DNA of 54,620 nt from a virus. This document shows positions 28,879-54,620 of the stretch, piece after piece. The position numbers and the translations under genes were made by a program. Under the pieces are notes generated by a model. It made no database searches and was not told the DNA's origin. It was given only the letters and a program-made list of their open reading frames with translations. How positions within the stretch are numbered: position 1 is the stretch's first letter; each line of letters opens with the position of its first letter. The stretch is from positions 1 through 54,620 of the IMG/VR virus record IMGVR_UViG_3300010885_063515. The stretch is one strand, 5' to 3'.

Positions 28879-29661
28879 CTATTCAATGGTCCATCCATCG
28901 TTGAGCATTTTGATGGACAAGTCGCCATCCCAAATCATTGGGAAGTGCGTGGAGTGCGCAGTTCTGGCATCAAGCTTGAGCCAAATTTTACCGCCGAGCT
29001 CGCGCCAATCCTTACAGAATGTCCAGTCTTCCCCAACAAAATACTGATCCTTGTCCCTGGAGTACCTAAAATATTCAAACACGTCTTCATCCGGCCCACC
29101 GTAGTGCTCCTTATACCTTCTGTCTGGGTGCCCCTTCTGAAACTCAAGGAATACTTTTCTATTAATAATCATAGCCCCGGTAGCGGTGCTGTCGGCTTGC
29201 GCAAAACCTAGTTCGCGTATTTCTTTTGGTGTCGATTCTTGGTCTTCCGACAGCTTAAATGCCCCCGGCGACATGCCTGCATGGAATGCCATTGCGCCGC
29301 TATCGGCATATTTCACAATGTTCTGTACTGACTTATCTGTGGAAAATGTTCTCTTGCAATATGGTAAAGCCGTAAACTTTAACCCTGACTTCATGCAATC
29401 AATAACGTCCTGGGGCGACAGTCCAACGTCTGCGTCAAGAAGCAAGGCATGGGAGAAGCCAGATTGCATAAAGTTGTGAATGCATCGATTTCTTGCAACT
29501 GGCAAGATCGAGTTTCCCGCCAGTGGGTACCAATGAACCGGTATGCCTTCTTTTCCAGCAAGATTAATGATTGAAACTACGGTTGTAACGTATTCCATAC
29601 TAAATGAGCCGTGAATGCTCGGGGTAGTGATAAATAAAGATGGCTTATTTTGCTCTGCCAT
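28879..29661 (-). CDS. GT-A-fold glycosyltransferase-like protein, paralogue 1
   Basis: Encodes 260 residues with GGAGG before the ATG. Motifs are PVARNRCIHNFM (near residue 55), LLLDADV (a DxD-type metal site, near 73), a TGAMIINRKV segment and GEDWTFCKDW near the C-terminus. The same set, in the same order, occurs in the proteins encoded at 52676 and 53679, so these three are paralogues. It would transfer a sugar from a nucleotide sugar; the acceptor could be phage DNA, virion protein or host surface glycan. It has no signal peptide or membrane segment. Catalytic activity is inferred from the motif set. Confidence 0.7.
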   Translation of the reverse strand: MAEQNKPSLFITTPSIHGSFSMEYVTTVVSIINLAGKEGIPVHWYPLAGNSILPVARNRCIHNFMQSGFSHALLLDADVGLSPQDVIDCMKSGLKFTALPYCKRTFSTDKSVQNIVKYADSGAMAFHAGMSPGAFKLSEDQESTPKEIRELGFAQADSTATGAMIINRKVFLEFQKGHPDRRYKEHYGGPDEDVFEYFRYSRDKDQYFVGEDWTFCKDWRELGGKIWLKLDARTAHSTHFPMIWDGDLSIKMLNDGWTIE

Positions 29662-29705: not shown

Positions 29706-29882
29706 TCAGTCTTCGTTGCGCCAACGGAGTGGTCCGGTTACCAGCCACGCTGTTGACAGCGCAAGAAGGATTGATCCAACAACGTTTCGGGTTTCACCCT
29801 CTGGAAGAACTGCCCAAGCAATGGCAAGACCAAAGATGGTCCAGCCCCCCGAGATAATGTCGTTTACTGCATTTTTAATCAT
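29706..29882 (-). CDS. Small two-helix membrane protein
   Basis: A short gene of 58 residues: it starts at the ATG at 29882 with AAGGA upstream, overlaps the stop of the stalk protein gene in an ATGA, and ends at the TGA at 29706. The product has two hydrophobic stretches ([15 protein letters not shown] and [17 protein letters not shown]) separated by PEGETRN, and ends in charged LRWRNED. The hairpin layout is like small holins or anti-holins. It lies in the leftward block, about 1.2 kb from the rightward lysis pair. Function is not proven. Confidence 0.7.
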
Positions 29883-31264
29883 GTTCCTTTTCTCCCTGAT
29901 TTACTTCCGCTTGAGCCCGAAGGTCCCGATGACCCCCTGCCCGCTACGGCACTTGCAGCTGAAGCCGCTGCCTGTGCAATTTGTGTGATAACGACAGAAG
30001 CAACCACGACTGGCTGCGCTTCCTTTTTTTGCTCTGGAGATAGATCATTTCCAAGGTTAGTTACTGCCGATACGGCTTCACCTACCGCTTCTGCCGCAGC
30101 CTCTGCAGCTTGGCCCACGGCCTCTACGGTTGCACTGACTGCTTCTACCGCCGCATCAGCTGCGCTGGAAAACGCTTCCCCAACAGCTGCTACGGCTTCT
30201 CCAACAGCTTCGCCGACCGCAGCTGCCACCTCTCCTACATCCGGCAGAGGGGGCTGTGTTGGCTCAGGAGTAGGAACAGGGCTGGGATCAGGAGAAGGGG
30301 CAGGAGACGGCGAAACACTTGGCTCCACGGTTCCTCCGGGCGTCGGCTCGGGTGAGGTAGACGGGTTCGGTGTTGGTCCATTTGTGGCCTCCGGGCTAGG
30401 CGTCGGGGTCGGCACGATTGACGGCTCCGGCGTTGGTGTCGCTATCGGGTACGGTGGCTCATCAGTTGGCGCAGGGCTTGGGGTGGGGTTCGGCGTAGGT
30501 GGCGGCGGAGTTGGCGTGGGCATAGGGGTCGGGGTTGGCTCTATAGAAGGCTCTGGCGTAGGGGTAGGAGCCACGCTAGGGCTAGGTGTGGGCGGTTCTG
30601 GTGTCTGCGTAGGTGTCGGCTCAGGAGTCGGCTCTACGGTCGGTTCTGGGGTGGGTTCCGGTGTGGGCTCAGGCGTTGGGCTTGGCGTAGGCTCAATAGA
30701 CGGTTCCGAGGTCGGCTCAGGCGTTGGGAGGATAGAAGGAATGGCGGTAGGGACAACGGTCGGCGGGTTGGGGTCGCGGAGCAGCGCCGTCGTGGTCAGG
30801 AGTTGATAGTGCCCACCCTCAGGGAATGGATCTTCAGGCCAGAAACATGATCCGTCGTGGCAGTTGAAGCGACCAGCACGAAGGCGATACACGCCAGCCT
30901 CAAGCTGGATGCTGATGAAGGAGTGCCACGACTGACCGCCAGTGCGAGGATCATCGTCGTTTGCCGTGAGTTCGGAGCCAGCGGCGTCATATAGCCACAG
31001 CACGGAGTCGGTAAAGCTGCCACCTTGCTCTGGTCGGTCACACCAGAAGGATGTCGTGTTGTCGCAAAGATCGGTCTCAGCCGTGAAGGTAGACGGAACA
31101 TCAATCACAACAAAATAATCGCCAGTCTCAGAGACGAGCGTGCTGTAAGGATACTCGGTGCCGTCGTAGCCATCCGCACCATATACCGGAGAGGTTACGA
31201 AACCAAACAGGAAGATCAACGTGACAAGCCAAACAATAGCAGCAACGACAAGACGATTAACCAT
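29879..31264 (-). CDS. Secreted Pro/Thr/Glu-rich stalk protein
   Basis: Encodes 461 residues from the ATG at 31264 (TAATG overlap with the upstream gene). Residues 1-29 form a signal peptide with cleavage near VYG-AD. Residues ~35-160 form a beta domain with an acidic DDDPRTGG loop, like pre-peptidase C-terminal domains. Residues ~165-340 are a long PTPEP-type repeat stalk. Then comes an Ala/Val/Glu heptad-like region ([13 protein letters not shown]), a hydrophobic stretch ([19 protein letters not shown]) and a Ser/Gly/Arg-rich tail. The layout implies export across the host membrane with a stalk through the wall. Roles in superinfection exclusion, lysis or adhesion are possible; none is shown. 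It is unusual for a phage. Confidence 0.7.
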
Positions 31265-31449
31265 TACTTGCCCTGTGCTGCAAGCCACGCCGCGAGGGAA
31301 CTAATCCCCGTCAGGCCAAGAAGTCCTACAATGAATTTTCCAAGGCGAAATGCCCCGCGGGTTTCCGCCATTTCAATACGCATGGAGGAAAGATCTTCGT
31401 CAATCTTGTCGAGCCGATCAATAATCTGTTGAATATTGTTTGCGGTCAT
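31264..31449 (-). CDS. Coiled-coil plus membrane helix protein (XhlA-like layout)
   Basis: Encodes 61 residues from the ATG at 31449, chosen because GGAGG lies 4-5 nt upstream; the longer frame to 31515 lacks a ribosome site. Residues 3-30 make a coiled coil ([20 protein letters not shown]) and residues 37-58 a hydrophobic helix ([20 protein letters not shown]). This layout is that of XhlA-type proteins, which associate with holins at the membrane. It is immediately followed by the secreted stalk gene (TAATG overlap), so both may act at the host envelope. Confidence 0.6.
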
Positions 31450-31754: not shown

Positions 31755-32816
31755 CTATGATTGGCTAACTATAGCACCACGTCCTGAATATTTAGTTTGG
31801 TATGCAACTGATTTTCCGTCTTTTAGCTTAAACGGTCTAAGTGTTGCAGTTCTAAGTTCAATCCCGGCATATTCTTCGTATGCCCTCACTTCTTCTGCGT
31901 GGCCTAGATAAAAAGATTCCATATTTTGACTCATCTTATCGTTCCACCATTCTAGCGTAGTTCCAGCAAGTTCGCAAATCTCTACCGGGCTGGCTCGCTC
32001 CCCGTATCCTGGTATTGCCCACTCACCCATCATGTGGTAAAAAGGGGACTCTATCCACGGGTACACTAGCGAAAATCCGTTGTTAATAAAATTTATTGAT
32101 TGGATAATCTCTTCCTCCCAAAATAGAATATCTTCTGGAAGAAGCGAGTGCCTTGGCAAATTATAATTACCAAACATAAAAGCTCCAGATACTTTTATGG
32201 CCGGGGCAAATGAGTGATTTTTAATGTATTTACTGAGTGAATGTGATTTGTTTTCAGGGTCCATATGTCCCCATTTTGGCACAAGGTTTGGAACAACAAA
32301 CCTACCAACATCCGCGACATTCTCCTTTACATCCCAACTTTTATTTGCCCAAAACGGATATCCAACTTTTGTTATTGGAATTGTCATTTCTGATTGACCC
32401 ATTTCTGGGTGAACGTATTCAGTCGGAACTCCAGTCATAATAACCCTGTCATGACCGATCGCATTAATAGATCGGTTAAAAGCATCAACAAGTTTTGAGT
32501 CCCAATTGTTGGCAAAATACGTATGCGCATCCACCTGAAGCACGTAGTCTTCTGCGCTGTACATTGACATCGCAGCGTTTCTACCCCTGCCAATTCCAAA
32601 ATAGCTGCCTATTGGGAACAGCTTCATTGTCACGTTGTTTAAATAATTTATTTCTGGAACGTCGGCCAAGGCCTGCTTATATCCCTCCTCGGTCCCAACA
32701 AAGGCAATTCCCATTCTTATGTCATGATCTCCTGACCTATTCTGAAAAGCGGAGCATACCGTTGTCGCAAGCTCGGTATCCCAACCACCCAAGGCAACCG
32801 ATACGTATATAGACAT
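31755..32816 (-). CDS. GlcNAc-transferase-like glycosyltransferase (PF11397-type)
   Basis: Encodes 353 residues. The N-terminus has the pattern ISV.LGGWD.E...T, then GRGRNAAMSMY, DYVLQVDAHTYFANNWD (a DAH metal motif where other GTs have DxD) and a later FGNYNLP..SLLPEDILFWEEE segment. This order matches the family that includes Skp1 hydroxyproline N-acetylglucosaminyltransferases. In that family the acceptor is a hydroxylated protein residue; the phage acceptor is unknown. Its start follows the stop of the DUF6065-like gene closely, with no strong ribosome site, so translation is probably coupled to that cassette. No membrane segment is visible. Confidence 0.72.
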   Translation of the reverse strand: MSIYVSVALGGWDTELATTVCSAFQNRSGDHDIRMGIAFVGTEEGYKQALADVPEINYLNNVTMKLFPIGSYFGIGRGRNAAMSMYSAEDYVLQVDAHTYFANNWDSKLVDAFNRSINAIGHDRVIMTGVPTEYVHPEMGQSEMTIPITKVGYPFWANKSWDVKENVADVGRFVVPNLVPKWGHMDPENKSHSLSKYIKNHSFAPAIKVSGAFMFGNYNLPRHSLLPEDILFWEEEIIQSINFINNGFSLVYPWIESPFYHMMGEWAIPGYGERASPVEICELAGTTLEWWNDKMSQNMESFYLGHAEEVRAYEEYAGIELRTATLRPFKLKDGKSVAYQTKYSGRGAIVSQS

Positions 32817-32819
32817 GTA

Positions 32820-33638
32820 TCACTTAAACTCTTTCTTTGACCAGAAAAACTTTCTGTACGGGGCGTGAAAGACTGTGCTCAACTTTGCAAATATTTCAGA
32901 CTTCTTCTTCTCAACCTCCTGCCTATCCTCTTCAGAGTCTGAAATGTAAGATGACCATGCCTCTCTTTTAAACGGTATAACCTGAGCAATTGGCGTTCCT
33001 GCCGGTATAATCCCATGAAACTTTGGGTCCTTGTACGCCAACATAAAGTTTATTTTAGGAAAAAATACATCTGTGTCCATAACTCCTGGCACCACCTCAA
33101 AATATGGGTTTGGGTTATTTAGTGGATTTGTGATAATGCTTGAATACCCTGGCGGAGTCATAAAAAGCCACGGCGTATAAACTTTCTGCATCCTCTGTCC
33201 GTGCTTTTGCTGGAGCGGGTGCGTTAAGGCCTGGCCATATTCGTGCCAGGTGATATCGCTTTGGGGTAGGCCGGAAAGCCTAACTGGGTAAGTTGAGTTT
33301 AAAACAAATTCTTCCTGGGGGCATGAAGCTGCGCTAGCGCTCATGTCCCCCTCAAACGGCAAGACATAAATTTCCGACACCGTGGTCACAATGTAGCCCA
33401 TAAGCATTGAGTCAAGAACAGGAATGCACCGCTTGATTGTTGCATAGTCACCTGCGCTGCTAAATTCTATCTTTGCCGTATTTGACTCTGGTGCGCCACT
33501 ATAGCCGCCATATGGGCTCATGTCTCTCCACCATTGCGGCAAGGATTCGGCCCCTGGCTTTGGAAATGAACCATCCGGAACTGGGTGGTAGTTCAATATC
33601 TTTATAATATTTGGTCTCTTCGGCTTTATATTAAACAT
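32820..33638 (-). CDS. DUF6065-like protein, paralogue C
   Basis: Encodes 272 residues from the ATG at 33638, which overlaps the stop of the methyltransferase-like gene by 8 nt; a start at 33671 has no ribosome site either. It has the shared core of the three paralogues: PQWWRDM near residue 35, TIKRCIPVLDS, FMTPPGYSSII, NPNPYFEVVPGVMDTD, IIPAGTPIAQVIPFKREAW and a C-terminal FFWSKKEFK. The GTPIAQV strand recalls dUTPase-fold barrels, but this is only a resemblance. I place the family near DUF6065 from memory of the TPPGYS and VDTD pattern. Function is unknown. It lies between the MidA-like and GlcNAc-transferase-like genes. Confidence 0.65.
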   Translation of the reverse strand: MFNIKPKRPNIIKILNYHPVPDGSFPKPGAESLPQWWRDMSPYGGYSGAPESNTAKIEFSSAGDYATIKRCIPVLDSMLMGYIVTTVSEIYVLPFEGDMSASAASCPQEEFVLNSTYPVRLSGLPQSDITWHEYGQALTHPLQQKHGQRMQKVYTPWLFMTPPGYSSIITNPLNNPNPYFEVVPGVMDTDVFFPKINFMLAYKDPKFHGIIPAGTPIAQVIPFKREAWSSYISDSEEDRQEVEKKKSEIFAKLSTVFHAPYRKFFWSKKEFK

Positions 33639-34539
33639 TGCAAGTCTCGTGCCCGGGTCGGGGCCCCTCATTTTTCACGGTGACAACCGTTACGGCCAGT
33701 GCATTGTATCGTTCCATTTGTATGCTGGACCTTCTATTGTAAATGTATTTCCAATTAACGGCCCACCCAGCAAAGCTCACTGTCGCCCCAAAACTACTCG
33801 CAACAGATGAAATCCATTCGGTTGGCACTGAAGCATGCAGCACACCACCTTCGCTTATGCCGTGTACAAAATGTTCTTCAGTCATTTCTGCTGACCAATC
33901 CATAACCAGTAGATGCGTTGTCCCCCTCCTTGCCAGTACTGTCTTTAGGTAATTTGCTCGGGATGGCGAATAGACAAATGGGTTTCCAATACGAACATTA
34001 TCAAGGATGGCAGATTTATCAATAATGTTGGTATTCCATCCAAAAGGCAAGTAATATCTGCGCCCATCGTCTGCGATGCAGAGTTCCTCGTAGTATCCTG
34101 TTTTCATATCCTGCCTAAGCACCGTGAACGGCAATGCATCAATAAATTGATTTGCTATGACTACCATCTCGCCCCCCTGCACTGATTGCGAAATTCCGTC
34201 TACCATAATGTGGTCATAGGGGATCATCCCGAGCCTGGCAATTGATTCACGCAATACGGGGTTAAATTCAGAAGCCCATGCCCCCTGCGGGTTGCCCCAT
34301 CCAATTTTTCTAAGCACTCCTGAAGAAAACTCTCCAGACCCCTCCCCGTCAAATCTTATGTGATCTATGGGGCCAAGAGAAAGAACCCACTCGGACACAG
34401 CGTCCTGCCAGTGGTCTCCGGTTGATGCATTATATGATTTATCGGCGACCCACTGTGCGGATCCGTTATATTGCCCCGATTCCCCGGTAAGCTTGTCTAT
34501 GGCTCGAAAGAAAAACCTATCCGATATTATTCTTGTCAT
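33631..34539 (-). CDS. MidA/NDUFAF7-type SAM-dependent methyltransferase-like protein
   Basis: Encodes 302 residues; AGGA precedes the ATG, which overlaps the zinc-ribbon gene. Motifs fit the PF02636 family (Methyltransf_28): FDGEGSGEFS at 63-72 in place of the glycine-rich SAM loop, ASEFNPVLRESIARLG near 89-104 for the acidic residue binding ribose, and VVIANQFIDALPFTVL at 126-141, close to the family hallmark NExxDALP. Family members in mitochondria methylate an arginine of a complex I subunit. A protein substrate is therefore plausible here, perhaps a product of neighbouring genes. NQF instead of NEF is a change in the hallmark, so activity is uncertain. Confidence 0.68.
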   Translation of the reverse strand: MTRIISDRFFFRAIDKLTGESGQYNGSAQWVADKSYNASTGDHWQDAVSEWVLSLGPIDHIRFDGEGSGEFSSGVLRKIGWGNPQGAWASEFNPVLRESIARLGMIPYDHIMVDGISQSVQGGEMVVIANQFIDALPFTVLRQDMKTGYYEELCIADDGRRYYLPFGWNTNIIDKSAILDNVRIGNPFVYSPSRANYLKTVLARRGTTHLLVMDWSAEMTEEHFVHGISEGGVLHASVPTEWISSVASSFGATVSFAGWAVNWKYIYNRRSSIQMERYNALAVTVVTVKNEGPRPGHETCNV

Positions 34540-34741
34540 TTTCCTGACCCCACTTTTCTACCGGACACTCAGCATGAGGCAACTGCGCCTTGAGCTTCAT
34601 GAAGCACAGGCACTTTTTGCATTGACCCGAAAGCTTAATGAAGTGTTCGCATGAACGGCACATATTCATGCGGCGCTCAAATGCCTCATCCGAAACCCTG
34701 CCTATGTTTGGATTAATCATGTCCCACGGCTTAGCGGTCAT
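34517..34741 (-). CDS. Cys-rich zinc-ribbon protein
   Basis: Encodes 74 residues. It contains CRSC (near 28), CKKCLCF (near 41) and a later CPVEKW (near 60), the pattern C..C / C..C.C / CP seen in small phage zinc ribbons. Its ATG overlaps the stop of paralogue B by four bases (ATGA), and its own end overlaps the methyltransferase-like gene. It is therefore part of the tightly coupled cassette. Binding of zinc is expected; a partner for protein or nucleic acid is not known. Confidence 0.65.
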   Translation of the reverse strand: MTAKPWDMINPNIGRVSDEAFERRMNMCRSCEHFIKLSGQCKKCLCFMKLKAQLPHAECPVEKWGQENDKNNIG

Positions 34742-35556
34742 TTTGCTTCACCCTCATGAGTTGCTCCAGTTACCGGGCACTTCTCTGCAACGTCTAGGTA
34801 GTTCTTCTTTTTCCAAAACCTTGACCTGTAAGCTCCGGAAAAAATGTTCCTTGTCAAATTTACGTACTTAAGCCGATGCGACTCTGAGTACGGGAGTAAT
34901 GATGCGTGCCAATCGGCTCTCTGGAATGGTATGACTTGGAATATTGGCGTACCCATAGGGATAGTGCCAACAAAATCTTCTCGCAAATAGAATGTTATCT
35001 CCGAGCGCATGGGAAAATCATCAGAGTCAACAACTGCCGACATTGTTTGGAATGGAAGGTCAAATCTGTTTAGGGGGTGAGTGATTAGCACAGACCAGCC
35101 TTTTGGAATCCCAAATTCAAATGGTTGAACCCAAAGAAATGGGTTGGGCTTAAACCCTTGCGGGTGTTTAAATCCGTTCATTGCCATTGGGTTTCTTGGC
35201 GGGCGGACTGGCTCCCAGAAGTTTTGCCTGGGCCAATTGATAATAGATTCACCGGTGTGATTTTTAGAGACCAGCAAATCTGCGTTGAGTTCCTGGATAA
35301 ACCCCGAAGAAAACGCATCAACAAGCGGGACGCATGCCTTTACCGTATGGTTATATTCACCAGTCATGAGATTCATTGTCGGGTGGTCGTGTGCAATTTT
35401 AGGAATATCCTTATACCACTGCGGAATGTATTCCTTTGCCGGTTTGGGGTGAGAAAATCCAGTACCTTCCATTGTCTGGTGCTCAGGTCTCCATGTAATA
35501 TTCTGCGAAATTTGCTTTGGCGCAATTCCCAACATTCGCTTGATAGTGTCAATCAC
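34738..35556 (-). CDS. DUF6065-like protein, paralogue B
   Basis: Encodes 272 residues from the GTG at 35556, chosen because AGGAAGGAG lies 5 nt upstream and the GTGA overlaps the stop of paralogue A. It is the most divergent copy: PQWYKDI, TVKACVPLVDA, a WPRQNFWEP insertion, PKGWSVLITHPLNR instead of TPPGYS, AVVDSDDF instead of VVDTD, then GTPIFQVIPFQRADW. The C-terminus has FWKKKNY followed by an extra tail with CPVTGATHEGE. Loss of the TPPGYS motif suggests a changed or lost active site if the motif is functional. It sits between paralogue A and the zinc ribbon. Confidence 0.62.
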   Translation of the reverse strand: MIDTIKRMLGIAPKQISQNITWRPEHQTMEGTGFSHPKPAKEYIPQWYKDIPKIAHDHPTMNLMTGEYNHTVKACVPLVDAFSSGFIQELNADLLVSKNHTGESIINWPRQNFWEPVRPPRNPMAMNGFKHPQGFKPNPFLWVQPFEFGIPKGWSVLITHPLNRFDLPFQTMSAVVDSDDFPMRSEITFYLREDFVGTIPMGTPIFQVIPFQRADWHASLLPYSESHRLKYVNLTRNIFSGAYRSRFWKKKNYLDVAEKCPVTGATHEGEAK

Positions 35557-36320
35557 TTGAACTCCTTCCTGCTCCAAAATACCCTTCGGTAAGACGAGCT
35601 GATGTAGGTAAAGAACTTTCTTTGTGCCCGCGACACTTTGTCCGCGTCTTCTGGGCTTGTCTCGGTAACCAACTTCCAGCTCTCTCGCTTAAACGGAAAC
35701 ACCTGGCAGATTGGAGTTCCGGCAGGGATAATTGTTTCAATTTCCTTTGCATCCATTACAAAAGGAAAATTTACACAGTTTGTGTACGTGTCGGTATCAA
35801 CGACTCCAGGAAGTACCTCAAAATATCCATTTGGGTTGTTCATGGGCGGCATAAAAAGAGTTGAGTACCCTGGCGGAGTAATGATATGCCATGGATTAAT
35901 CATTTTAAACACGTCTCGCCCAGGAAACAACTTTGCCATTGGGTGGTGCTTTGCTTGGCCAAATTGGTGGCCCTCTACGGCCTTGGTGTCCCCGTCCCAG
36001 TGGCGCCAGCTAAATTCAAGCTTGGTTGGCTCGTCTGGGTTGTCAAAATCTTCCTTAGGGCTGATCTTAACAAAGATATCCTTATCGGTTTTTAAAACAT
36101 ACCCAAGGGAAAGGCTGTCTAGAACAGGAACGCACCTTTTAATTGTTGAGTTATATGTTGCGCTGGCATCAAGCCTCTTCTCTTCTGGCTCAGCCCCATT
36201 GTACCCGCCATATGATGGCATATCTTTCCACCAGTCCGGCATGTTTTTACCTATTGGCGTTGGCCAAAACTCCTCCAGGACTTGTCGGTCCGCAATAAAC
36301 TTAATAAGTTTATCCGCCAT
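35553..36320 (-). CDS. DUF6065-like protein, paralogue A
   Basis: Encodes 255 residues from the ATG at 36320 (GAGAGGG upstream; overlap of 11 nt with the thioredoxin-like gene). It has PDWWKDM, TIKRCVPVLDS, IITPPGYSTLF, NPNGYFEVLPGVVDTD, IIPAGTPICQVFPFKRESW and FWSRKEFK. It is most similar to paralogue C. Invariant Trp, Asp and Pro residues among the three copies suggest a shared fold. It is the first of the set after the fibres and thioredoxin-like gene in transcription order. Function unknown; an enzyme or binding barrel is possible. Confidence 0.65.
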   Translation of the reverse strand: MADKLIKFIADRQVLEEFWPTPIGKNMPDWWKDMPSYGGYNGAEPEEKRLDASATYNSTIKRCVPVLDSLSLGYVLKTDKDIFVKISPKEDFDNPDEPTKLEFSWRHWDGDTKAVEGHQFGQAKHHPMAKLFPGRDVFKMINPWHIITPPGYSTLFMPPMNNPNGYFEVLPGVVDTDTYTNCVNFPFVMDAKEIETIIPAGTPICQVFPFKRESWKLVTETSPEDADKVSRAQRKFFTYISSSYRRVFWSRKEFK

Positions 36321-36846
36321 TGTTTTCCCTCTCGTTGAGCATGATCCTTCTAAGGTCAACAATCTCTCTTCGGATTGATTGCAGCTCAACCGCAAGATTT
36401 TCCGCAAGCTCGGCTATGGCTGAATTGTCCTTCTTCCCACAGCCCTCGCATGTGGGGTCGGACTCACTTGCATCTAGTCCTGGCTTTGTCTGGAATATGT
36501 CAGTGAGCCCAAGCCTCGCCTCGATGTCCCGCTCTGAGCCATCTCCCCACCCAACAACTCGATTAATAGAATTCCCCCCTGCAGTCATAACAAGAACGGG
36601 AACTCCGGTTACGCTGGCAGAAGTTGCAATGTCTGCATTCTTAATTGTGTCAACAGCAATAACCTTCAAATTGCTCTCTGCATATTTTCTTTCAATTGCT
36701 TCAATCCATGGATATGCTTTTTGACAAAAAGTACATTCAGTTGATGAGAAGTAATAAAGAACGTGCCCGTTGTGGGACTCTGAATGCAACAGCCTGTCCC
36801 ATGGTGAGAGGTGATCGTTGATCGGTGCGTCAATCGTGTGCGGCAT
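36310..36846 (-). CDS. Thioredoxin-like protein with extra CxxC and coiled coil
   Basis: Encodes 178 residues with AGGAGG 5 nt before the ATG. A thioredoxin fold is indicated by VLYYFSSTECTFC (active site C38-T-F-C41), a VIAVDT strand and the cis-proline segment TGVPVLV (P83). Residues 133-136 are a second pair, CEGC, and the C-terminal ~40 residues form a helix (AVELQSIRREIVDLRRIM), perhaps for oligomerisation. It would exchange disulfides in the cytoplasm. It lies directly downstream of a gene for a fibre with 25 cysteines, which makes a link to that protein's folding or to reduction in the neighbouring cassette reasonable, though unproven. Confidence 0.78.
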   Translation of the reverse strand: MPHTIDAPINDHLSPWDRLLHSESHNGHVLYYFSSTECTFCQKAYPWIEAIERKYAESNLKVIAVDTIKNADIATSASVTGVPVLVMTAGGNSINRVVGWGDGSERDIEARLGLTDIFQTKPGLDASESDPTCEGCGKKDNSAIAELAENLAVELQSIRREIVDLRRIMLNERENNGG

Positions 36847-36871
36847 GATGCCTCCTAGCTACTGGTTGCCC

Positions 36872-38383
36872 CTATCCAACGATAATTCCTACGCTATCGC
36901 CTGAGGCAATGTAGCTAGTATACCAGTAGTCTATCTGTTGCGTCTCTCCTGGGTTTTGGTCCCCAAGCGGGGCAACCCCCATCCCGTGACCAACCGAGGA
37001 GAGGTAGTCTGTCTGGCCAGAGGCTTGAGATCCCGACGTCGCAGCGGATGTCGTCCACGCGGCATCGGTATACACCGTAGCGGTGTACGAGCCACCAACC
37101 GTGACTGCCTTGACAGATCCCCATGTTTGAGTTGAAGATGTGCTGTCATAGAGAGCAGCTGAGGTGTAGTGGTTTACCCTGGAACCAGAGGCAATCCTGT
37201 CCACCTTCAGGTAGTACCTGTACTGATAGGCTGGAACTGTTGACAGGCATGAATCGTAGCAGTCCACCCCACTTGTCGGAACGCATGTCCCGCATGCATT
37301 TGTATTGCCTCCGCCTGCAGTGCAAGTGCACGCTCGTGTATACTCTTTTCCAGTTGTTCCACAAGATACACAGGAATAGCTTGCGGCGGCGCACGTAACG
37401 TTTCCGCAAACAAAATTTGAAGCAGCTGTTGCAGTGCATCCCGTTGCGCAAGTTCCAACCGAGTACGTTGCAGCAAGGCATCGGTATCTCTGCGTAGGGT
37501 TTCCCCCGCTGGCGTAATTTCCACCGCTCGCATAATTACCGCCAGCAGATTTCACATTGCCACCGCTTGCATAAGTACCGCCACCCTTTGGCGTCCCGCC
37601 TCCGGATTGGTTTCCACCGCCCTTAACATTTCCAGGACTCGGAGAAAATTTTGCAGCCCCACCAAACGCAAATCCATTTTGCACTGTGCTTGGAGCATTA
37701 TAATTGAGAGCATTGTAGGTTATTGTATTATATGTCAACGGATTATAGTTAGTTGCGTTGTACGTAGTAGCGTTGTAGTTAATTGTATTATAATTAGTTG
37801 TTGAGTACGTCACATACGGGTCGCATGTTTCTGCGCTATTTCCGGTAAGCTGAGCGCAATTTGCATCACCACACACTCTGGCAGTTTCACTTGCCGTTCC
37901 AATTGACCTTGTTGGCGTTGCTCCCGAACAAGAACACGTTCCGTGGGTTGTTGTGGTGCAGCCGCATGCGACTGTGCCGACATAGTTGGTGGTTTCCCCT
38001 GAGGTGTAGGTTACTGGATTAACATTTCCCCCGCCGCAGCCAACGCACGACGTGCAAGAGTAGTAACCTCCAACACAGGTTGTTCCGCTTTGATATCTTT
38101 CACCATATACATAAGCAATCCAATAATTGCTTGCATCTTTTACCCAAAACGCGGCCCCAACACCATTTCCTAGCGTCGCCCCAACCCCGGTCTCAACGCC
38201 AACTTCTGCGTCTGAGTTTGGGATAACGCACCACGCAACGTCAGATGCCTGCGTGTTGTTTGCCGCATTGGTAGAAATGTTCCACTGGGTGGCGTTTTGC
38301 CACGCAAGATTACCTGTGTCAGTTGAACCAAGAGTTCCTTGGCTTGTATTTGCCCTGTTAAATGTATCGGATACCGTTGCCAT
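36872..38383 (-). CDS. Cys-rich fibre-like protein with Tyr-Asn pentapeptide repeats
   Basis: Encodes 503 residues, with a TAATG overlap with the upstream fibre gene. Residues ~1-80 look like a LamG-type beta domain (DTFNRANTSQGTLGSTDTGN, then AAFWVKDASNYWIAYVYG). Residues ~85-185 and ~290-390 are Cys-rich, with 25 Cys in total (for example CTSCVGCGGGN). Residues ~190-230 are seven x-[NT]-Y-N-x repeats, followed by a Gly/Asn region (NYASGGNYASGGN). The C-terminal ~120 residues are beta-rich (VNHYTSAALYDS, GSYTATVYTDAAW). Many disulfides are possible outside the cell, or metal binding. It is probably displayed on the tail, from its place in the fibre operon. Confidence 0.68.
   Translation of the reverse strand: MATVSDTFNRANTSQGTLGSTDTGNLAWQNATQWNISTNAANNTQASDVAWCVIPNSDAEVGVETGVGATLGNGVGAAFWVKDASNYWIAYVYGERYQSGTTCVGGYYSCTSCVGCGGGNVNPVTYTSGETTNYVGTVACGCTTTTHGTCSCSGATPTRSIGTASETARVCGDANCAQLTGNSAETCDPYVTYSTTNYNTINYNATTYNATNYNPLTYNTITYNALNYNAPSTVQNGFAFGGAAKFSPSPGNVKGGGNQSGGGTPKGGGTYASGGNVKSAGGNYASGGNYASGGNPTQRYRCLAATYSVGTCATGCTATAASNFVCGNVTCAAASYSCVSCGTTGKEYTRACTCTAGGGNTNACGTCVPTSGVDCYDSCLSTVPAYQYRYYLKVDRIASGSRVNHYTSAALYDSTSSTQTWGSVKAVTVGGSYTATVYTDAAWTTSAATSGSQASGQTDYLSSVGHGMGVAPLGDQNPGETQQIDYWYTSYIASGDSVGIIVG
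37695..37814 (-). repeat. Tandem 15-bp repeats encoding Tyr-Asn pentapeptides
   Basis: Eight consecutive 15-bp units, each roughly GxATTATAxxTxxxx on the plus strand, encode the pattern x-[NT]-Y-N-x on the minus strand; the unit at 37800-37814 is degenerate. Periodicity is exact, without spacers. Confidence 0.85.
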
Positions 38384-39777
38384 TAGTAGGTGGCCTCCAC
38401 GGTGACTGAAAGATCTGCACCTGAAGTTCCAGCGCTTACAATCTCAACTTGCAATATGTCGCCAATCGCAAGCGACGTTACCGTGCTTAGGGATGTGGTG
38501 ACCACCGCCGCCCCCACGGTGGCGCTTGTATTGCCGTTGGTAGAGCCGTTTTTTACAAGGCGATAGGTCACGCCAGAGCCGCCACCAGCGTAGGCTCGAG
38601 CGTTTACTAGCGTACAGGCGATTGGGGAGATAAACCTTGGCTGCTTAACTCCAGCTGTCAAGGTTCCAGAGATGTGGAATGAAATTGGCATGTAAAGCGT
38701 TTGAAGCTTGGTGTAATGAGCAGAGCTCATGGAGCCAGCAGCCGACCCTGTTGCCGCAGAGATTGAAAGCGTGTTCCCAGACTTTGAGAGTGGTGCGGTC
38801 GTCGTAATGGTTGAGACACCAGTGAACTGCGTCCAAACAATTGCGTCGGTTCCAATGCGAATTGCGCGAGTTGGGGTTGTTGCCGTCCCGACTGAGTTCA
38901 TGATCCAGCCCTGACCAACGTTAGTTGTCCCGTGGGTGATGAACGTAAAGTCTCCTGGGAAAACCTCTCCAGCAATTGAGTTGTCAAAGTCAGTCGCTCG
39001 GGTAAGCACCCAAGGGGCGCTTCCGCTACCAATGGCAGTCACGGTATAAATACCGTTCTGCGTGGTCGTTGCCTGATCCTTTACAAGGATACGGTCGTCT
39101 ACGGCTGCTGCAACGGAGTCAACCGTTAGTGCAACGTTGGTCGTAGAGGTCAGCGTTGCTCCTACGCCAGTACCCTGGCTTGCGTCTGCAGAACCAGCCG
39201 CGTAGGTTGCGGTGAGAGCAGCAGTAGTTGCTAGTTTCACCGATGCGTGTGTGTTCACTCCAGCCGTAACGTTATCCACGTATGCCTTTGTCGCTGCGTG
39301 GCTTGCTGAGGTTGGAGTTCCAACAGTGACTAGGTTTGCTGAGAAGTTTCCGCTTGCATCACGAGCCACAATTGCGCTGGCAGTGTTTGCCGAGGTTGCT
39401 GTGGTCTGGGCATTGAGGACAGTCAGCGTATTGCTATTTCCGTCAATCGTCTTGCCTGTCAGGGTCTGGGTATTTGTCGTGCCGACTATCGCCCCGGTAG
39501 CACCATGGGTAGCGGTGAGCCCAGCATGGGTGCTGACCTTGGTCGTTGCATCCGAAGCCGCAGATGAGATGGCATCCGACTCAGCGGTGTCGGCTTTTGC
39601 CTGGGCCCCGTCTGGGCTTTCGGTTGAGAAGGGGAGCGACGACCACGCAGTGCTGCCAGTTCCAATCTTGAACTGCTTGTTGGTGCTGTCGTAGCCAATC
39701 TCGCCAGCCGCAAGGGTTGGGTTGACCGAGGCCCAGTTGGCCGCAGTGTCCCTTCTTGGCTTAATGATGTTTGCCAT
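38383..39777 (-). CDS. Tail fibre protein, module-sharing copy 1
   Basis: Encodes 464 residues. Residues 1-50 contain the attachment-type N-terminus common to phage fibres (KPRRDTAANWASVNPTLAAG, then GEIGYDSTNKQFKIGTG). About 80-150 is an Ala/Ser/Thr-rich shaft. About 160-320 is a module with KAYVDNVTAGVN, DRILVKDQ, NGIYTVTAIG and WTQFTG that also occurs in the two fibres upstream. The C-terminal ~90 residues form a beta tip (LYMPISFHISGTLTAG). It overlaps both neighbours by TAATG, which implies coupled translation in a fibre operon. Receptor is not known. Confidence 0.75.
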   Translation of the reverse strand: MANIIKPRRDTAANWASVNPTLAAGEIGYDSTNKQFKIGTGSTAWSSLPFSTESPDGAQAKADTAESDAISSAASDATTKVSTHAGLTATHGATGAIVGTTNTQTLTGKTIDGNSNTLTVLNAQTTATSANTASAIVARDASGNFSANLVTVGTPTSASHAATKAYVDNVTAGVNTHASVKLATTAALTATYAAGSADASQGTGVGATLTSTTNVALTVDSVAAAVDDRILVKDQATTTQNGIYTVTAIGSGSAPWVLTRATDFDNSIAGEVFPGDFTFITHGTTNVGQGWIMNSVGTATTPTRAIRIGTDAIVWTQFTGVSTITTTAPLSKSGNTLSISAATGSAAGSMSSAHYTKLQTLYMPISFHISGTLTAGVKQPRFISPIACTLVNARAYAGGGSGVTYRLVKNGSTNGNTSATVGAAVVTTSLSTVTSLAIGDILQVEIVSAGTSGADLSVTVEATY

Positions 39778-42700
39778 TACGCGCTCCCGCCGTCAATTGT
39801 CTCGTTGGCTATGCTCAAAGTATACCAGGAAACATTTGTTCCGTTTGTTGTCAAAAGTTTTCCGCTGTTGCTTGCCTGAGAGGGTAGCAGGGCATTTATT
39901 GCTCCGGTTGCGGTGGTCTGACCTGTGCCGCCGTAAGCAATGCCCACCGCTGATCCCTGCCATGTGCCAGTCCCAATCGTTCCAACGCTTGTTAGCGATG
40001 ATGATGTTACGCCAGAACCTAGTGCATTAACAGATAATACTTGCGCCCCATCAATTTTAAAGACAGATCCGCTTGGCAGCTCAATTGAAGAAGGGGAAAT
40101 TGTCGCAGCGATTGTTTCGCTGGAAGTGCTATTTCCCGTAACTGCAATTTCTAGCTTTGCGCCGTATGCAGAATTTGTAAAGTTCTGCGTTGCCTTTCCC
40201 CTTACCTCAATTGAGTGACCGCTAGCAAATGTGCTAGCGCCATATCCAATCATGGTAATTTTCCCGATACCGTCTCCTGACTGTATTGCGGATTGCGAAG
40301 CGCCAGTTCCCCTAGAGGAACGAAGTGCTATTTCACTATCAGATCCGGTTCCGTAAGAATCAATAACGATCACATTGTCTTGGGAATTATTTCCCACAAG
40401 ATGGATTGATGCGGTTGTGTCGTACTCAAGCAGGGAGGCCGGGGATGAAGGGTTGTTGTCAATCAGGAGCTTTCCGGTAACTGATGGGTTTTCAGCTGCA
40501 GCATACGATGGGGAAACCCATCCGAGGCCGTTGGCGTTGCTATACACCGACATGAGAATTGTTCCATCATTGCCCGGTGTCAAGGTTGAAGGAACGCTAT
40601 CCGCTGTTGCGGTAATTATTGCCCCTTTTCCTGTGAGCAGGCTTTTTGCAGTCTTAGTGTCTGCGTGGTCGTATGTGCTCTTTATTGCCAAGGAGCTTGC
40701 GGCAACAGTCTGAGAGCTACTGCTGGTTGAGTCGCTAAGTTTTACCGCAACATTTCCGCCAACAAACTCAAGACCTGTTCCAATTGAAACATTTATTGTA
40801 TTTCCTGTTGCGTCTATTCCGTCACCAGAGAGAAATGTTGCCGATCCAGTGAATTGATACCATGTTAAATCGCTTGTCCCTATAATATGATTTCCTTCGT
40901 CATCCTCGCCTACGGATGCAAGAATAAATCCCTGAAATGCATTTGCTACTCCGTATCCTGGAAGAGTGAAAACAGCATCCCCTGAGGCTATCTGCCCGGC
41001 TATTCTATTGTTTGCATCAGTTGATCTTGTTAATAGCCAGGTTGAACCAGCTGATCCAGCATTTGTAACAACATAAATTCCGTTTTTGGTTTGATCAGCC
41101 TGGTTTTTTACAAGCACTCTTTTTCCTGCTGAAGGATTTCCACCATCAATAATAAGTGCCCCATTTGTTGTTCCGGCCAATGTGGCGCCAATGCCGTACC
41201 CTCCATCGGCACCTATTGTCCCAGGGGTGTACGAAGGAGAGTTTGGAAGTATCGCAGCCGTTGCATAGTGCACCGATGAATGCCAATTCATACCAGCAAT
41301 GAGGGTGTCGGCATAGTTTTTTGTTGCAATGGTGGATGTATCAACGCTAAGAGTTGCAGACCCGCTTGAAGCGCCGCCAGTAAGCCCTGTCCCGGCAACA
41401 ACATCGGTGATGTCACCTGTTGGGGTCACCCACGAAAGAACGCCAGAACCGTCTGTCGCAAGGACCTGATCTGCAGTACCATCGGTATCTGGAAGTGTGA
41501 GCGTGACGTTGGATGCAAGGGTTGCTGGAGATTTAAGCGCAACATAGTTGCTGCTGTCCAGGTCGCCAAGCCTGACCTCTCCCTGTGCGTTGACAGTAAG
41601 CTGCGTTGCTGTTGCAGAGCCAATATTTGGAGTTACAAGCGTTGGGCTGGTGGCACGGACGCTTGCCCCAGTGCCTGTTGCTGTTGAGCCGCCAAGGAAA
41701 TACACGCCCCACGAGGCAGCGGTTGTTCCGCTTGCGGTCACGCAAATAAACTCCGCTGCCTGTCCCGATGCAAGCGTCGCAACAAGATTCCCTCCACTGG
41801 AGTTTACTGTTACGGCTCCAGTGCTATCGTTGCGAATCCAAAGCCAAGAACCAAGATACGAAGTATCCAAGACAATTGTATGCGTTGTTGATCCAATTAT
41901 CCTGACATGCGCATCAAGAGTGCTGCTTACGGATGTACTTCCAGCGCTTGCAGTAATTACGGAGGGCGTGATAATGATTGCGTCAGAAAATGTTGCCCTA
42001 GATGAAAAAGTTGGAGCAGCAATAGAGGGACTGCTGCTAAGCACTACTGCGCTACTCCCCGTTACTCCGTTGCCTGAAATAAAACGCGAACTCCACGAGG
42101 CAGCCGTTGTTCCCGATGCGAGAATGCAAGTAATTATGTATACATATCCAGTTGGAACAGACTGAACGGTATTTGCTCCAGATGATTGGACTGTAATAGT
42201 TACACTGGAGTTGTTAACAATCCAGAAACTTTGCCCAAGAGTGCTGGCAACTGGCAATTGCACAATTTGCCCGCTGGTTGATCCAGTAAAGTATTGATAA
42301 TAGCCTGATGTGCTTGTAAGCGTAAGCGTTGAGGCGGACGTGACAGTTGTGGCATATCCAAGTTTAGGATTGTCAATAACTGGAAGCGAAAGCGTTGGTC
42401 CAGTTCCAAATACCAGCAAGCCAGATCCAGTCTCGTCTGAAACAACTCCAGCAAGTTCTGCGGATGTAGTAGAAGCAAACGAAGACAGCTTATCGGTCTT
42501 GCGAGCAACAACAGTGGTGTCAATTGCCACATCGTCAGCATTGACGGTAATGCCTGTTCCCGCACCTACGGTGAGGGTGGCAGACCCAGAAGTTGCGCCG
42601 CCCGTTAGACCAGCACCAGCAACGACATCAGTGATGTCTCCTGCTCCGCCACCGCTAGCACCAAGGTCAACCCAGGCACCGTTTACTCGTGCGTATACGA

Positions 42701-42817: not shown

Positions 42818-44584
42818 TTACCCGATTATAACAACCCTGTACTGGTTGGTTGTAGGCGCAGCGGAGAACACGAAGTCAGTTGTGTCCACGGTTGCATGAA
42901 CGATGTCAGGATAGACCTTCTGGTACGGGCTGGCGACCTCATACGCCTCAACGGCCACATCCAGGGTGTTGAAGTTGTGGGTTACCGTAATGGTTGTCGC
43001 GGAGTTATCCCCGATAGTTGCCGCGTACTTTCGCGTGCCGCCAAGGGCCGCAAGTGCTGCTGCTGCCGTCGTCTGACCAGTACCACCGTTTGTAATGGCA
43101 AGGGCGCCAGTGACCGCAGATGCGGAGCTGACGTCAACTGCGCCAAACGCAGGTGCGCCGCCGCCGCTTGGGACACGAAGAACCTGATTGGCAGTTCCCG
43201 CAGTCGTCGCGGCAAGTGCGCCAGTTCCTGCGCCAATGATGACGCCGTTGCTGGTAAGTGTCGTTGCACCAGTACCGCCGTTGGCAACTGGGAGCGTGCC
43301 GCTTACTTCAGTTGTAAGCGAGACGGTGCTTCCCGTTGTCAGCGCATCAGTTCCGCCTGTGGACTTAACGATACCAGCGGTAAACGTTGCTGCACCAGTA
43401 CCGCCGCGAGCAACACCGAGGGTGCCGCTTGTAAGCTTATCGGTGCTGTGGCTTGGGATGTCCGAAGCGACAAGCGCTCGGAACGATGGGGCGGAGGGCC
43501 CGCCAGTTGCTGGCCCTGCGAAGACGGTGTTATCAGAAGCGGTTGTTGCTCCAGTACCGCCCTTGGCAACTGGAAGAGTTCCAGTTACTGTTGAGGTTGA
43601 GACATCAACAGCGCTGGTTGCAAGCTTTGCTGCAGTAATCCCAGCGTCCTTGACGCGAAGGGTGTCAGAGGAAATCTCAATGGTTGAGTCATCAACGTTG
43701 ACCGCAAGGTCAGTTCCAGTGAGGGTAAGTCCAGCTCCGCCCGTAATTGAGCCAGAACCAGAGAACTGCGTAAATACAAGTGCAGTAGTGCCAAGCGTAA
43801 TTGGGTTGTCGGTAGTAATAACCCAACCAGTGTTTCCGTTGGCGGTTCCCTCTTCAACGAAGGTGAAGAGCCCTGCGGTTACCTCTACGCTTGCGTCGGC
43901 ATCGGTTGCACGAACTGCAGCACCAGAAGACTGGACAACGTAGATACCGTTTTCGGAACCAGTTGACTGATTCTTAACAAGGACGCGGTTGCCAGTGGCA
44001 AGCGTAATCCCGTCAATTACATCTCCGTTTTCAAGGGCGGTGGACAGTGCGACGTTTGCAGTCGTGGCGACTCGTACGGACGCCTTAACATCAAGGCCAG
44101 ATGCCACCCCGTCAACGTACGCCTTGGTTGCTGCGTCGGTTGCGTTAGTGACAGATCCCGAGATGCTTACGCTGGTTGCGCTAACGGTTCCGGCGGTAAA
44201 GTTTCCAGAAGCGTCGCGCTTAACAATCGTGCTTGCGGTGTTGGCATCAGTTGCGTTATTAACAAGCGTATAGTGAGCAGCGGACATTGAGCCAGCTGCG
44301 GCGCCGCTTGCGGCGGAAATAGAAATGGTGACGGTTCCGCCCGAAGTGGACTTCTGGATTGGCCCAGTTACATCGATGCCGTCAATGGAGCCGACAGCCT
44401 CCCAGGTAGCGCCGTTGTAGACCAATAGGCCGACAGCACCGTCGTTGGAGTCTGAGTTGTAGTAGATTTGACCGGTAGTAGGACTTGCAGGTGGGGTCGC
44501 AAGAACCTGAATGACAGCATTGCGTAGCTCATTCTTATTGAGGTCTAGGTAGCTTCTTAGGTCTAGATGCGTCAGTATCTTCAC
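42818..44584 (-). CDS. Tail fibre protein, module-sharing copy 3
   Basis: Encodes 588 residues from a GTG with GAGGAG upstream. The N-terminus LDLRSYLDLNKNELRNAVIQ is followed by ATPPASPTTGQIYYNSDSN, a phage fibre attachment element. The shared module (KAYVDGVASGLDVKASV, NRVLVKNQ, NGIYVVQSSG, VFTQFSG) lies at ~150-275. The rest is shaft with GTLPVAKGGTGATT-type repeats, known from many tail fibres. The C-terminal ~50 residues (ATTITVTHNFNTLDVAVEAY) are a beta tip similar to the protein encoded next upstream. It is the first fibre of the operon in transcription order. Confidence 0.75.
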   Translation of the reverse strand: MKILTHLDLRSYLDLNKNELRNAVIQVLATPPASPTTGQIYYNSDSNDGAVGLLVYNGATWEAVGSIDGIDVTGPIQKSTSGGTVTISISAASGAAAGSMSAAHYTLVNNATDANTASTIVKRDASGNFTAGTVSATSVSISGSVTNATDAATKAYVDGVASGLDVKASVRVATTANVALSTALENGDVIDGITLATGNRVLVKNQSTGSENGIYVVQSSGAAVRATDADASVEVTAGLFTFVEEGTANGNTGWVITTDNPITLGTTALVFTQFSGSGSITGGAGLTLTGTDLAVNVDDSTIEISSDTLRVKDAGITAAKLATSAVDVSTSTVTGTLPVAKGGTGATTASDNTVFAGPATGGPSAPSFRALVASDIPSHSTDKLTSGTLGVARGGTGAATFTAGIVKSTGGTDALTTGSTVSLTTEVSGTLPVANGGTGATTLTSNGVIIGAGTGALAATTAGTANQVLRVPSGGGAPAFGAVDVSSASAVTGALAITNGGTGQTTAAAALAALGGTRKYAATIGDNSATTITVTHNFNTLDVAVEAYEVASPYQKVYPDIVHATVDTTDFVFSAAPTTNQYRVVIIG

Positions 44585-54497: not shown

Positions 54498-54620
54498 TTT
54501 CACCTCCGGGACGGACAGCATACACCATTTTTTTGCGTGCGCCGCCCCCGTTTTTGGGGGAAGGGGGGGGAACCTTTAAGGCGGGGGGGGCTGGGGGGCT
54601 CAGGAATCTGGGGATCTGGG
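54498..54620. other. Right-end stretch with G-rich low-complexity sequence
   Basis: After the ribosome site and a possible -10 (TATGCT on the minus strand, 54517-54522), bases ~54540-54620 are dominated by C- and G-runs, including CCCCC-GTTTTT-GGGGG. No gene is visible here. The base composition differs sharply from the rest of the window. Confidence 0.5.

Follow-up and report, generated by a model that had tools for sequence, protein, structure and literature searches.

The operon analyzed here, seven genes read leftward within a viral DNA stretch of 54,620 nucleotides (IMG/VR record IMGVR_UViG_3300010885_063515, positions 1 to 54,620; hereafter the window), is probably a fibre-linked cassette for the post-translational modification and maturation of proteins. 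Genes of the cassette are found grouped next to fibre genes in other phages, and cassette and receptor-binding fibres are exchanged as one block; the encoded enzymes would act on these fibres, or on accompanying Pro/Thr-rich proteins, as assembly proceeds.

Organization of the operon

All seven ORFs lie on the minus strand at 31755-36846, where the preliminary description had placed them, in the order thioredoxin, DUF6065-a, DUF6065-b, DUF6171, MidA-like methyltransferase, DUF6065-c, and PF11397 glycosyltransferase (GT; Table 1). The cassette is downstream of the fibre genes, the nearest being the Cys-rich fib53, and the successive gaps and overlaps from fib53 to the GT are -25, +11, +4, +4, +23, +8, and -3 bp (+8 being the 8-bp overlap of the MidA-like and DUF6065-c genes), bearing out the proposal of one coupled leftward unit that includes the GT. 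Probable corrected starts are ATG 36320 for DUF6065-a, GTG 35556 for DUF6065-b, and ATG 33638 for DUF6065-c. The four fibre genes described before the cassette are present, but the exchangeable island leaves out the first (42818-44584), which is conserved flank, and takes in just the other three (36872-42797). Pfam scores above cut-off upheld the PF11397 GT (49.7 versus 21 bits), the Cys-rich ribbon, identified as DUF6171 (36.8 versus 27 bits), and the thioredoxin-like protein (PF00085, 43.4 versus 23.5 bits), in which a second CxxC lies near the C-terminus.

Table 1. Features of the cassette and its surroundings in the window.
Feature	Coordinates	Strand	Evidence or remark
Thioredoxin-fold protein, first cassette gene	36310..36846	-	PF00085 E 4e-11; CxxC motifs CTFC and CEGC (second)
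DUF6065-a (P0003), predicted dUTPase-like fold	35553..36320	-	phrog_7084 E 1e-50; AlphaFold2 pLDDT 92.5
DUF6065-b (P0002)	34738..35556	-	phrog_7084 E 9e-29
DUF6171, small Cys-rich zinc-ribbon-like protein	34517..34741	-	PF19668 E 5e-9; phrog_13558 E 1e-13
Divergent MidA-like methyltransferase (P0004)	33631..34539	-	PF02636 sub-threshold; hhalign Prob 94
DUF6065-c (P0001)	32820..33638	-	phrog_7084 E 2e-41
PF11397 GlcNAc-transferase-like glycosyltransferase, GT60 type	31755..32816	-	PF11397 E 5e-13; QVDAHT motif
fib53, Cys-rich fibre-like protein	36872..38383	-	directly upstream of thioredoxin gene
Two more tail-fibre genes, in exchangeable island	38383-39777, 39777-42797	-	tail-fibre and structural PHROGs
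Fibre gene outside island, conserved flank	42818..44584	-	96% amino acid identity to L310
Pro/Thr-rich mucin-like protein, (PTPEP)n	29879..31288	-	downstream of GT

The DUF6065 proteins

In agreement with the earlier recognition of three DUF6065-like paralogues, all three proteins matched phrog_7084, and a search with DUF6065-a retrieved the other two window copies (E 6e-57 and 2e-19). Only DUF6065-a passed the Pfam DUF6065 cut-off (27.3 versus 26.6 bits); DUF6065-c matched weakly (E 0.012) and the Pfam scan of DUF6065-b gave no DUF6065 match. In the tree, DUF6065-a is the orthologue of the first copy of locus L006, DUF6065-b of the second copies of L006 and L008 (support 100/99), and DUF6065-c of the third copy of L006 (support 100/99). 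This topology, reported here for the first time, points to three old orthologous lineages in the window and ruled out a recent tandem duplication.

The AlphaFold2 model of DUF6065-a was confident, and the 50 listed Foldseek hits in the PDB were dUTPases and one dCTP deaminase (probability 1.00, best E 1e-4), with TM-scores normalised by target of 0.4-0.7 confining the likeness to the level of the fold. Among the folds put forward previously, a dUTPase-like fold, i.e., that of an enzyme superfamily, is thus newly predicted for DUF6065, while cupin and oxygenase were ruled out as the wrong fold. The dUTPase motifs 3 and 4 are in register (GVVDTD and GTPxxQV), but the canonical motif 1 Asp, motif 2 Ser, and Gly-rich motif 5 are not conserved, ruling out DUF6065 as the phage's own dUTPase. 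Comparison with the dUTPase profile was weak (Prob 6, P 0.006) and a PF00692 search of the window gave zero matches. Residues K61, C63, D68, S153, D175, D177, Q206, R212, and K252 are near-invariant across 79 DUF6065 homologues, and the three copies of the window retain every one of them; these polar positions look like a ligand or active site.

These features bear on a role in nucleotide or DNA metabolism, in which DUF6065 would be a (d)NTP-processing enzyme of the dUTPase superfamily and the oxygenases found in related cassettes would act with the GT on modified DNA bases. The fold with its alignable motifs, the proximity of DUF6065 to ribonucleotide reductase in HRTV-8/HF2 and S-RIM4, and the DNA-repair role proposed for cyanophage 2OG oxygenases (PMC3686209) would fit. 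Such a role is nevertheless improbable given the absent motifs, the canonical dUTPase already encoded by 9/10 host genomes searched and by HRTV-8, the solved structures nearest to the oxygenases, which are protein hydroxylases, and a location and exchange that go with fibres.

The MidA-like methyltransferase

The MidA-like protein carries the motifs DGEGSGEFS and ANQFIDALPF. Its assignment as a MidA-type methyltransferase found support in a match to a profile of ten cellular MidA proteins (hhalign Prob 94.3, P 1e-7, 199 columns) but not in Pfam, since the PF02636 scores of the window (14.7), L006 (20.2), and L310 (19.4) proteins all fell below the 23.3-bit cut-off. AlphaFold2 with a three-sequence input reached pLDDT 39, and the profile retrieved nothing useful from PDB sequences. 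Neither tblastn against 50,697 phage records nor a viral-contig scan with the single sequence gave a match; a two-sequence alignment recovered four loci from the viral contigs, all of the L006 lineage, and the gene is confined to one cassette lineage.

Recurrence of the cassette and association with oxygenases

The GT protein had no tblastn match in the 50,697 phage records, and its profile retrieved nothing useful from PDB sequences. Its homologues were collapsed at 60% identity into 24 groups, and all 23/23 representatives scanned matched PF11397. Within four genes of the GT, an oxygenase was found in 13/24 groups, DUF6065 in 13/24, DUF6171 in 10/24, and any of these in 19/24. Compared with genes at least seven positions away in the same GT loci, a background that does not fully correct for relatedness, enrichment within four genes was observed for DUF6065 (19/187 versus 0/224 genes, P 2e-7), oxygenases (19/187 versus 4/224, P 3e-4), and DUF6171 (10/187 versus 0/224, P 3e-4). 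Genes labelled by fibre models were this close in only 3/24 groups, with several large unlabelled neighbours. The survey of co-occurrence proposed earlier gave a strongly positive answer: DUF6065, DUF6171, and PF11397 repeatedly occur with oxygenases of the protein-hydroxylase type, in many cases next to fibres, and the cassette, as first described here, is found as a conserved operon on independent contigs of uncultured phages, in which 2OG-Fe(II) oxygenases usually accompany it.

The solved structures nearest to the oxygenase profile were prolyl-4-hydroxylases (E 7e-15), PHD2, and prolyl-3- and collagen lysyl hydroxylases. The oxygenase and PF11397 genes adjoin each other in many relatives and are adjacent or close in L310, L251, L256, and L260, and the L310 protein has an intact HxD...H triad and 2OG Arg (PF13640 E 1e-8, above cut-off). 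Iron ligands are missing from the L191 oxygenase and the 2OG-binding Arg from that of L202, so that the gene may have decayed in these relatives, in which case the GT cannot strictly need the oxygenase. No PF13640-type 2OG oxygenase was found in the whole window record (E<=1), and the overlap of the MidA-like and DUF6065-c genes leaves no space for one between them.

DUF6065 loci were also collapsed at 70% identity; cellular loci were left out of the automatic neighbour clustering due to shadow ORFs in GC-rich DNA. Among the 48 non-redundant loci, tail-fibre and tail-fibre-assembly PHROGs lay upstream of DUF6065, and 24/70, 14/70, and 11/70 downstream genes matched oxygenase-type PHROGs, a PHROG labelled 'ferrochelatase' matching the same proteins; a first adjacency test was modest (14/48 versus a permutation mean of 6.6 and maximum of 12). 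DUF6065 often directly adjoins fibre genes, as in L006 and L007 where it sits between two with overlapping start and stop codons, or in the Hafunaviridae where it adjoins the host-range fibre block (PMC8651126, PMC7230728), and many phages have it without oxygenase or GT. Such contexts are as expected if DUF6065 were a fibre assembly factor or minor virion component, its dUTPase-like fold presumably forming a trimer that clamps the trimeric fibres, with the remaining genes as loosely associated morons. We consider this rather unlikely, as the near-invariant polar residues suggest a ligand or active site, the association with oxygenase and GT is statistically clear, and no fibres were found near the Rhizobiales chromosomal copies examined. 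DUF6065 also occurs away from fibres in two cyanophages (Sf-CH5 and S-RIM4).

Exchange with the fibre genes

Comparison with L310, a close relative, shows that the fibres and the cassette were exchanged en bloc, as newly reported here. Flanking DNA is about 82-95% identical between L310 and the window in the covered flank bins. The L310 island between these flanks, comprising the exchanged fibre genes and everything up to the glycosyltransferases, matches a third phage, L309 (mostly 87-99% identical), rather than the window, whose fibre genes at 38383-42797 have diverged from it between conserved flanks. The left switch point falls at L310 4020-4140 and the right one where the first exchanged fibre gene starts. 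In addition, L310 has two glycosyltransferases that the window lacks, a GT25 and a Caps_synth enzyme (its third glycosyltransferase), as well as the intact oxygenase, and the window cassette is best read as a reduced version without these three genes.

Linkage by exchange indicates shared function or host adaptation and is not proof of the fibre as substrate. It fits equally well with modification of the host surface for superinfection exclusion, where GTs alter host glycans and sit with fibres since both follow the receptor type. Glycosyltransferases of the pelagimyophage host-recognition cluster have been read in this way (PMC7029224), and the families of the L310 GT25 and Caps_synth proteins include LPS or capsule members. 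This explanation is unlikely: the characterised relatives named here of GT60, of the prolyl/lysyl-hydroxylase-type oxygenases, and of MidA all act on proteins, and no role in making glycolipids is apparent for thioredoxin or DUF6065.

Proposed function and candidate substrates

Under the favoured reading as a protein modification and maturation cassette, the thioredoxin would service disulfides of the Cys-rich fib53, a candidate client with 25 Cys in 503 amino acids, NYN repeats, and conserved N- and C-terminal parts, which is followed by thioredoxin in 14/14 loci with a full-length homologue. The GT60-type enzyme would transfer HexNAc onto Thr and, in oxygenase-bearing relatives rather than the window, onto hydroxylated Pro or Lys; further glycosyltransferases (the L310 GT25 and capsule-type enzymes) would extend or diversify the glycan, and the MidA-like enzyme would methylate a protein side chain. 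DUF6065 may be an accessory enzyme with the dUTPase fold or a factor that binds clients, its three diverged copies serving different ones. A possible substrate is the Pro/Thr-rich protein downstream of the GT, which has a hydrophobic stretch close to each terminus. Proteins of a similar kind are encoded near the cassettes of L202, L191, L309, and L310. Pro-rich proteins also adjoin oxygenase and GT in L251, with (PTPVA)n repeats, and in L226, where (APTPAP)n is joined by GPP repeats, although Pro-rich neighbours occur in only 6/24 GT groups.

The modification pathway for fibres suggested in the preliminary description thus gained from co-occurrence and exchange but is narrower in the window, where the hydroxyproline half is missing although relatives have the oxygenase; MidA belongs to one cassette lineage only, DUF6065 also occurs away from fibres, and a specifically hydroxyproline-GlcNAc linkage is only a possibility. 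More tentatively, such islands might be exchangeable units of receptor-binding protein plus decoration, in which co-inherited enzymes hydroxylate, glycosylate (with GT60 initiation), methylate, and disulfide-mature the fibres, DUF6065 being a new enzyme of dUTPase fold or a factor that recognises clients, and the whole a prokaryotic-virus counterpart of Skp1/collagen-type hydroxylation-glycosylation. If so, host recognition would not be legible from fibre sequence alone, phage-encoded chemistry being part of the adhesin and travelling with it, and several genes that are common in aquatic phages but lack an explanation (fibre-adjacent 2OG-Fe(II) oxygenases, PF11397, DUF6065, and DUF6171) would gain a concrete function, some of them so far having been read as DNA-repair or LPS genes.

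Comparison with known systems

DUF6065 resembles the dUTPase superfamily in predicted fold and alignable motifs 3 and 4 and differs in its unconserved motifs 1, 2, and 5, an extra N-terminal part, the invariant Cys63, and a C-terminal FWxKKxYK-like tail. The Hafunaviridae homologues (HF2, HRTV-8) likewise lie beside a host-range fibre block, but as a single copy on the opposite strand with no cassette partners annotated nearby. The window methyltransferase shares with MidA/NDUFAF7, of which NDUFAF7 methylates protein arginine (PMC3829151), profile similarity including the glycine-rich SAM motif region and ANxFxDAxP, but is about 300 amino acids long, below the Pfam cut-off, and present in one cassette lineage only. 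The pelagimyophage host recognition cluster (PMC7029224) is also a hypervariable fibre region with glycosyltransferases, there GT8-rich and read as LPS modification, in contrast to the protein-directed families and conserved operon swapped en bloc here. Mycobacteriophages provide a precedent in which virion proteins, those of the capsid and tail tube, are glycosylated by phage-encoded means (Freeman et al., 2023, cited in PMC12619734), compared with which the present system is fibre-linked and combines PF11397 enzymes, protein hydroxylases, a MidA-like methyltransferase, and DUF6065. The known GT60 acceptor is Skp1 hydroxyproline, and a T. cruzi polypeptide GlcNAc-transferase belongs to the same family (PMC6939170). 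Like the Skp1 PhyA and Gnt1 (GT60) pathway of Dictyostelium and Toxoplasma (PMC6939170), relatives of the cassette pair a prolyl-hydroxylase-type oxygenase with PF11397, with extra glycosyltransferases in L310; the window differs in having no oxygenase, which may be decayed in L191 and L202, and the substrates of this cassette would be phage structural proteins.

Exchange of the cassette with fibre genes

The 54.6-kb uncultured virus record maintained the cassette on the minus strand directly downstream of the fibre genes (table), in agreement with the gene order, paralogues, and families of the preliminary description. Junctions in order from the Cys-rich fibre gene fib53 measured -25, +11, +4, +4, +23, +8, and -3 bp, such that the unit looks translationally coupled. 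Profile-to-profile comparison of the MidA-like protein with ten cellular MidA proteins gave Prob 94 and P 1e-7.

Cassette genes and neighbouring candidate substrates in the window
Feature	Coordinates	Strand	Assignment
Thioredoxin	36310-36846	-	Pfam above cut-off
DUF6065-a	35553-36320	-	phrog_7084
DUF6065-b	34738-35556	-	phrog_7084
DUF6171 zinc ribbon	34517-34741	-	above cut-off
MidA-like methyltransferase	33631-34539	-	below Pfam cut-off; profile-profile match to cellular MidA
DUF6065-c	32820-33638	-	phrog_7084
PF11397 glycosyltransferase (GT)	31755-32816	-	above cut-off
fib53	36872-38383		Cys-rich fibre
(PTPEP)n protein	29879-31288		Pro/Thr-rich

The 91-kb contig L310 is a close relative of the window, with protein identities of ~90-97% for flanking genes (window genes 27535, 28159, 28879, 31264, 31522, and 42818), and this relation breaks from 4.1 kb to ~16 kb of L310. 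The L310 island mostly matched a third phage, L309, at 87-99% (one 600-bp bin poorly covered) compared to 61-78% for the cassette genes, with much unaligned, and 64-94% for the fibres against the window. The left switch lay within ~100 bp between two genes, and the right one where the first exchanged fibre gene begins. Mapped onto the window, the island (~31755-42797) comprised three fibre genes and the whole cassette with no other genes. L310 island genes missing from the window encoded an oxygenase (PF13640, E 1e-8), a GT25 (E 7e-16), and a Caps_synth-type glycosyltransferase (E 7e-36). Of all the evidence linking cassette function to the fibres or the receptor that they serve, this exchange of fibres and cassette as one block is the strongest. 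The cassette is probably a fibre-linked protein-modification cassette, and modification of host-surface glycans is unlikely.

Recurrence in other phages

The uncultured viral contig L006 and its relatives carried the order fibre, DUF6065, fibre, Cys-rich fibre, thioredoxin, DUF6065, DUF6171, MidA-like, DUF6065, 2OG-Fe(II) oxygenase, and PF11397, with smaller versions in L008 and L010 (fibre, DUF6065, fibre, Cys-rich fibre, thioredoxin, (DUF6065), DUF6171). Across 48 non-redundant loci, DUF6065 neighbours matched tail-fibre PHROGs upstream and oxygenase-type PHROGs downstream. Starting independently from the GT, with homologues collapsed to 24 groups at 60% identity, an oxygenase was found at most four genes away in 13 groups, DUF6065 in 13, DUF6171 in 10, and any of the three in 19, with enrichment relative to distant genes of the same loci (oxygenase P 3e-4, DUF6065 P 2e-7, DUF6171 P 3e-4); all 23 GT representatives scanned matched PF11397. 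Arrangements included fibre-oxygenase-oxygenase-GT-lysozyme (L242-L251), fibre-oxygenase-oxygenase-DUF6065-DUF6171-GT (L260), and, in L263 (2773-10111), a Gly-rich fibre gene adjoined by DUF6065, a GT60-type gene, and seven oxygenase-like ORFs in a row; given this variation, the association has been assembled repeatedly.

A 1119-aa protein with carbohydrate-binding modules (CBM_4_9) was encoded directly 3' of DUF6065-GT-DUF6065-oxygenase in L203 (9316-12675). The GT-A-like family phrog_1574 had three window copies (28879-29661, 53679-54521, and 52676-53437) and also adjoined DUF6065 in several marine contigs, e.g., L026, L039, L043, L049, and L072.

Oxygenase, glycosyltransferase, and possible substrates

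The nearest solved relatives of the cassette oxygenase profile were bacterial prolyl-4-hydroxylase (E 7e-15), PHD2/EGLN1, prolyl-3-hydroxylase, and collagen lysyl hydroxylases. EGLN3-like oxygenases are widespread in marine phages (PMC12774648), and DNA repair or nucleic-acid modification was earlier proposed for phage oxygenases (PMC3686209, PMC7029224); for the cassette, nucleotide or DNA chemistry is very improbable. Proteins resembling 2OG-Fe(II) oxygenases attract the PHROG names ferrochelatase (phrog_3531/phrog_2954) and endonuclease (phrog_2297/phrog_274) in these loci, and those names are probably misleading.

Within the window's lineage, the oxygenase was intact in L310 (7488-8111), had lost the 2OG-binding Arg in L202 (6402-6983) and the iron ligands in L191 (5571-6188), and its gene was not found in the window record by PF13640 search; the GT is therefore retained without it. 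The proposal of a phage-encoded modification pathway, perhaps for fibres, stands in part and gains genomic evidence from recurrence and exchange with fibres. The Trypanosoma cruzi polypeptide GlcNAc-transferase acts on Thr of mucins and, with the GT kept without an oxygenase, Thr-rich proteins would be a reasonable alternative to hydroxyproline as acceptors. Hydroxyproline is a known GT60 acceptor, and the T. cruzi enzyme belongs to the same family (PMC6939170). A hydroxyproline-GlcNAc form is possible but doubtful in the relatives and less likely still in the window.

The fib53 product contains 25 Cys (5%; locus proteins: median 0.6%, 99th percentile 5.0%) and the thioredoxin gene follows it in 14/14 loci with a full-length homologue, two having one methyltransferase-like gene between, making fib53 a likely candidate disulfide client. 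It also displays CxxC motifs, NYN and GGN repeats, and a hypervariable middle between conserved ends.

The (PTPEP)n protein has hydrophobic segments near both ends and counterparts near the cassette in L202, L191, L309, and L310; a (PTPVA)n protein lies directly upstream of oxygenase-oxygenase-GT in L251. An (APTPAP)n protein with C-terminal GPPGPPGPP repeats (L226, 2263-3819) adjoins two PF11397 ORFs, one of 910 aa, and an oxygenase-like ORF of 415 aa in which several HxD motifs occur. Such neighbours, flagged in 6/24 GT groups and invariably on the GT strand, are suggestive only as putative substrates. Pro-rich proteins directly 5' of oxygenase genes in L251 (3976-5697) and L260 (2953-4728) carry a Hint/intein-like domain at the C-terminus, matched weakly by Pfam in L251 and indicated by C-terminal similarity in L260.

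DUF6065 lineages and predicted fold

A profile-based scan of viral contigs identified at least 565 DUF6065 relatives. Named viruses with DUF6065 were chiefly Hafunaviridae haloviruses, holding a single copy adjoining a fibre block that correlates with host range (PMC8651126, PMC7230728); two cyanophages had weak matches not adjoining fibres. Cellular members were mostly from Rhizobiales plus some other Proteobacteria, and in the Rhizobiales chromosomes L120 and L092 a single DUF6065 lay near ORFs resembling an ECF sigma/anti-sigma pair and a secreted repetitive protein. The window copies formed three separate tree lineages, each shared with L006 (support 85/80 for a, 100/99 for b, and 100/99 for c), which rules out recent duplication in the window.

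The AlphaFold2 model (79 sequences) was confident (pLDDT 92.5, pTM 0.86), and the Foldseek matches listed from the PDB were all dUTPases apart from a single dCTP deaminase (best E 1e-4, prob 1.00). GVVDTDTY...IPAGTPIxQV aligned with dUTPase motifs 3 and 4, but the canonical motif 1 Asp, motif 2 Ser, and Gly-rich motif 5 were not conserved, and a canonical dUTPase was additionally encoded in 9/10 host genomes searched and in HRTV-8. DUF6065 is thus predicted to share the dUTPase-like fold but falls outside the dUTPase family. The near-invariant K61, C63, D68, S153, D175, D177, Q206, R212, and K252, all present in the three window copies, favor a predicted ligand or active site; a pure fibre assembly factor, compatible with protein modification by the cassette, is a rather unlikely role.

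Comparison with known systems

Full-text literature search found no paper naming DUF6065, and none of the literature examined described this gene combination. Precedents are virion glycosylation in mycobacteriophages (as cited in PMC12619734) and glycosyltransferases in fibre islands (PMC7029224).
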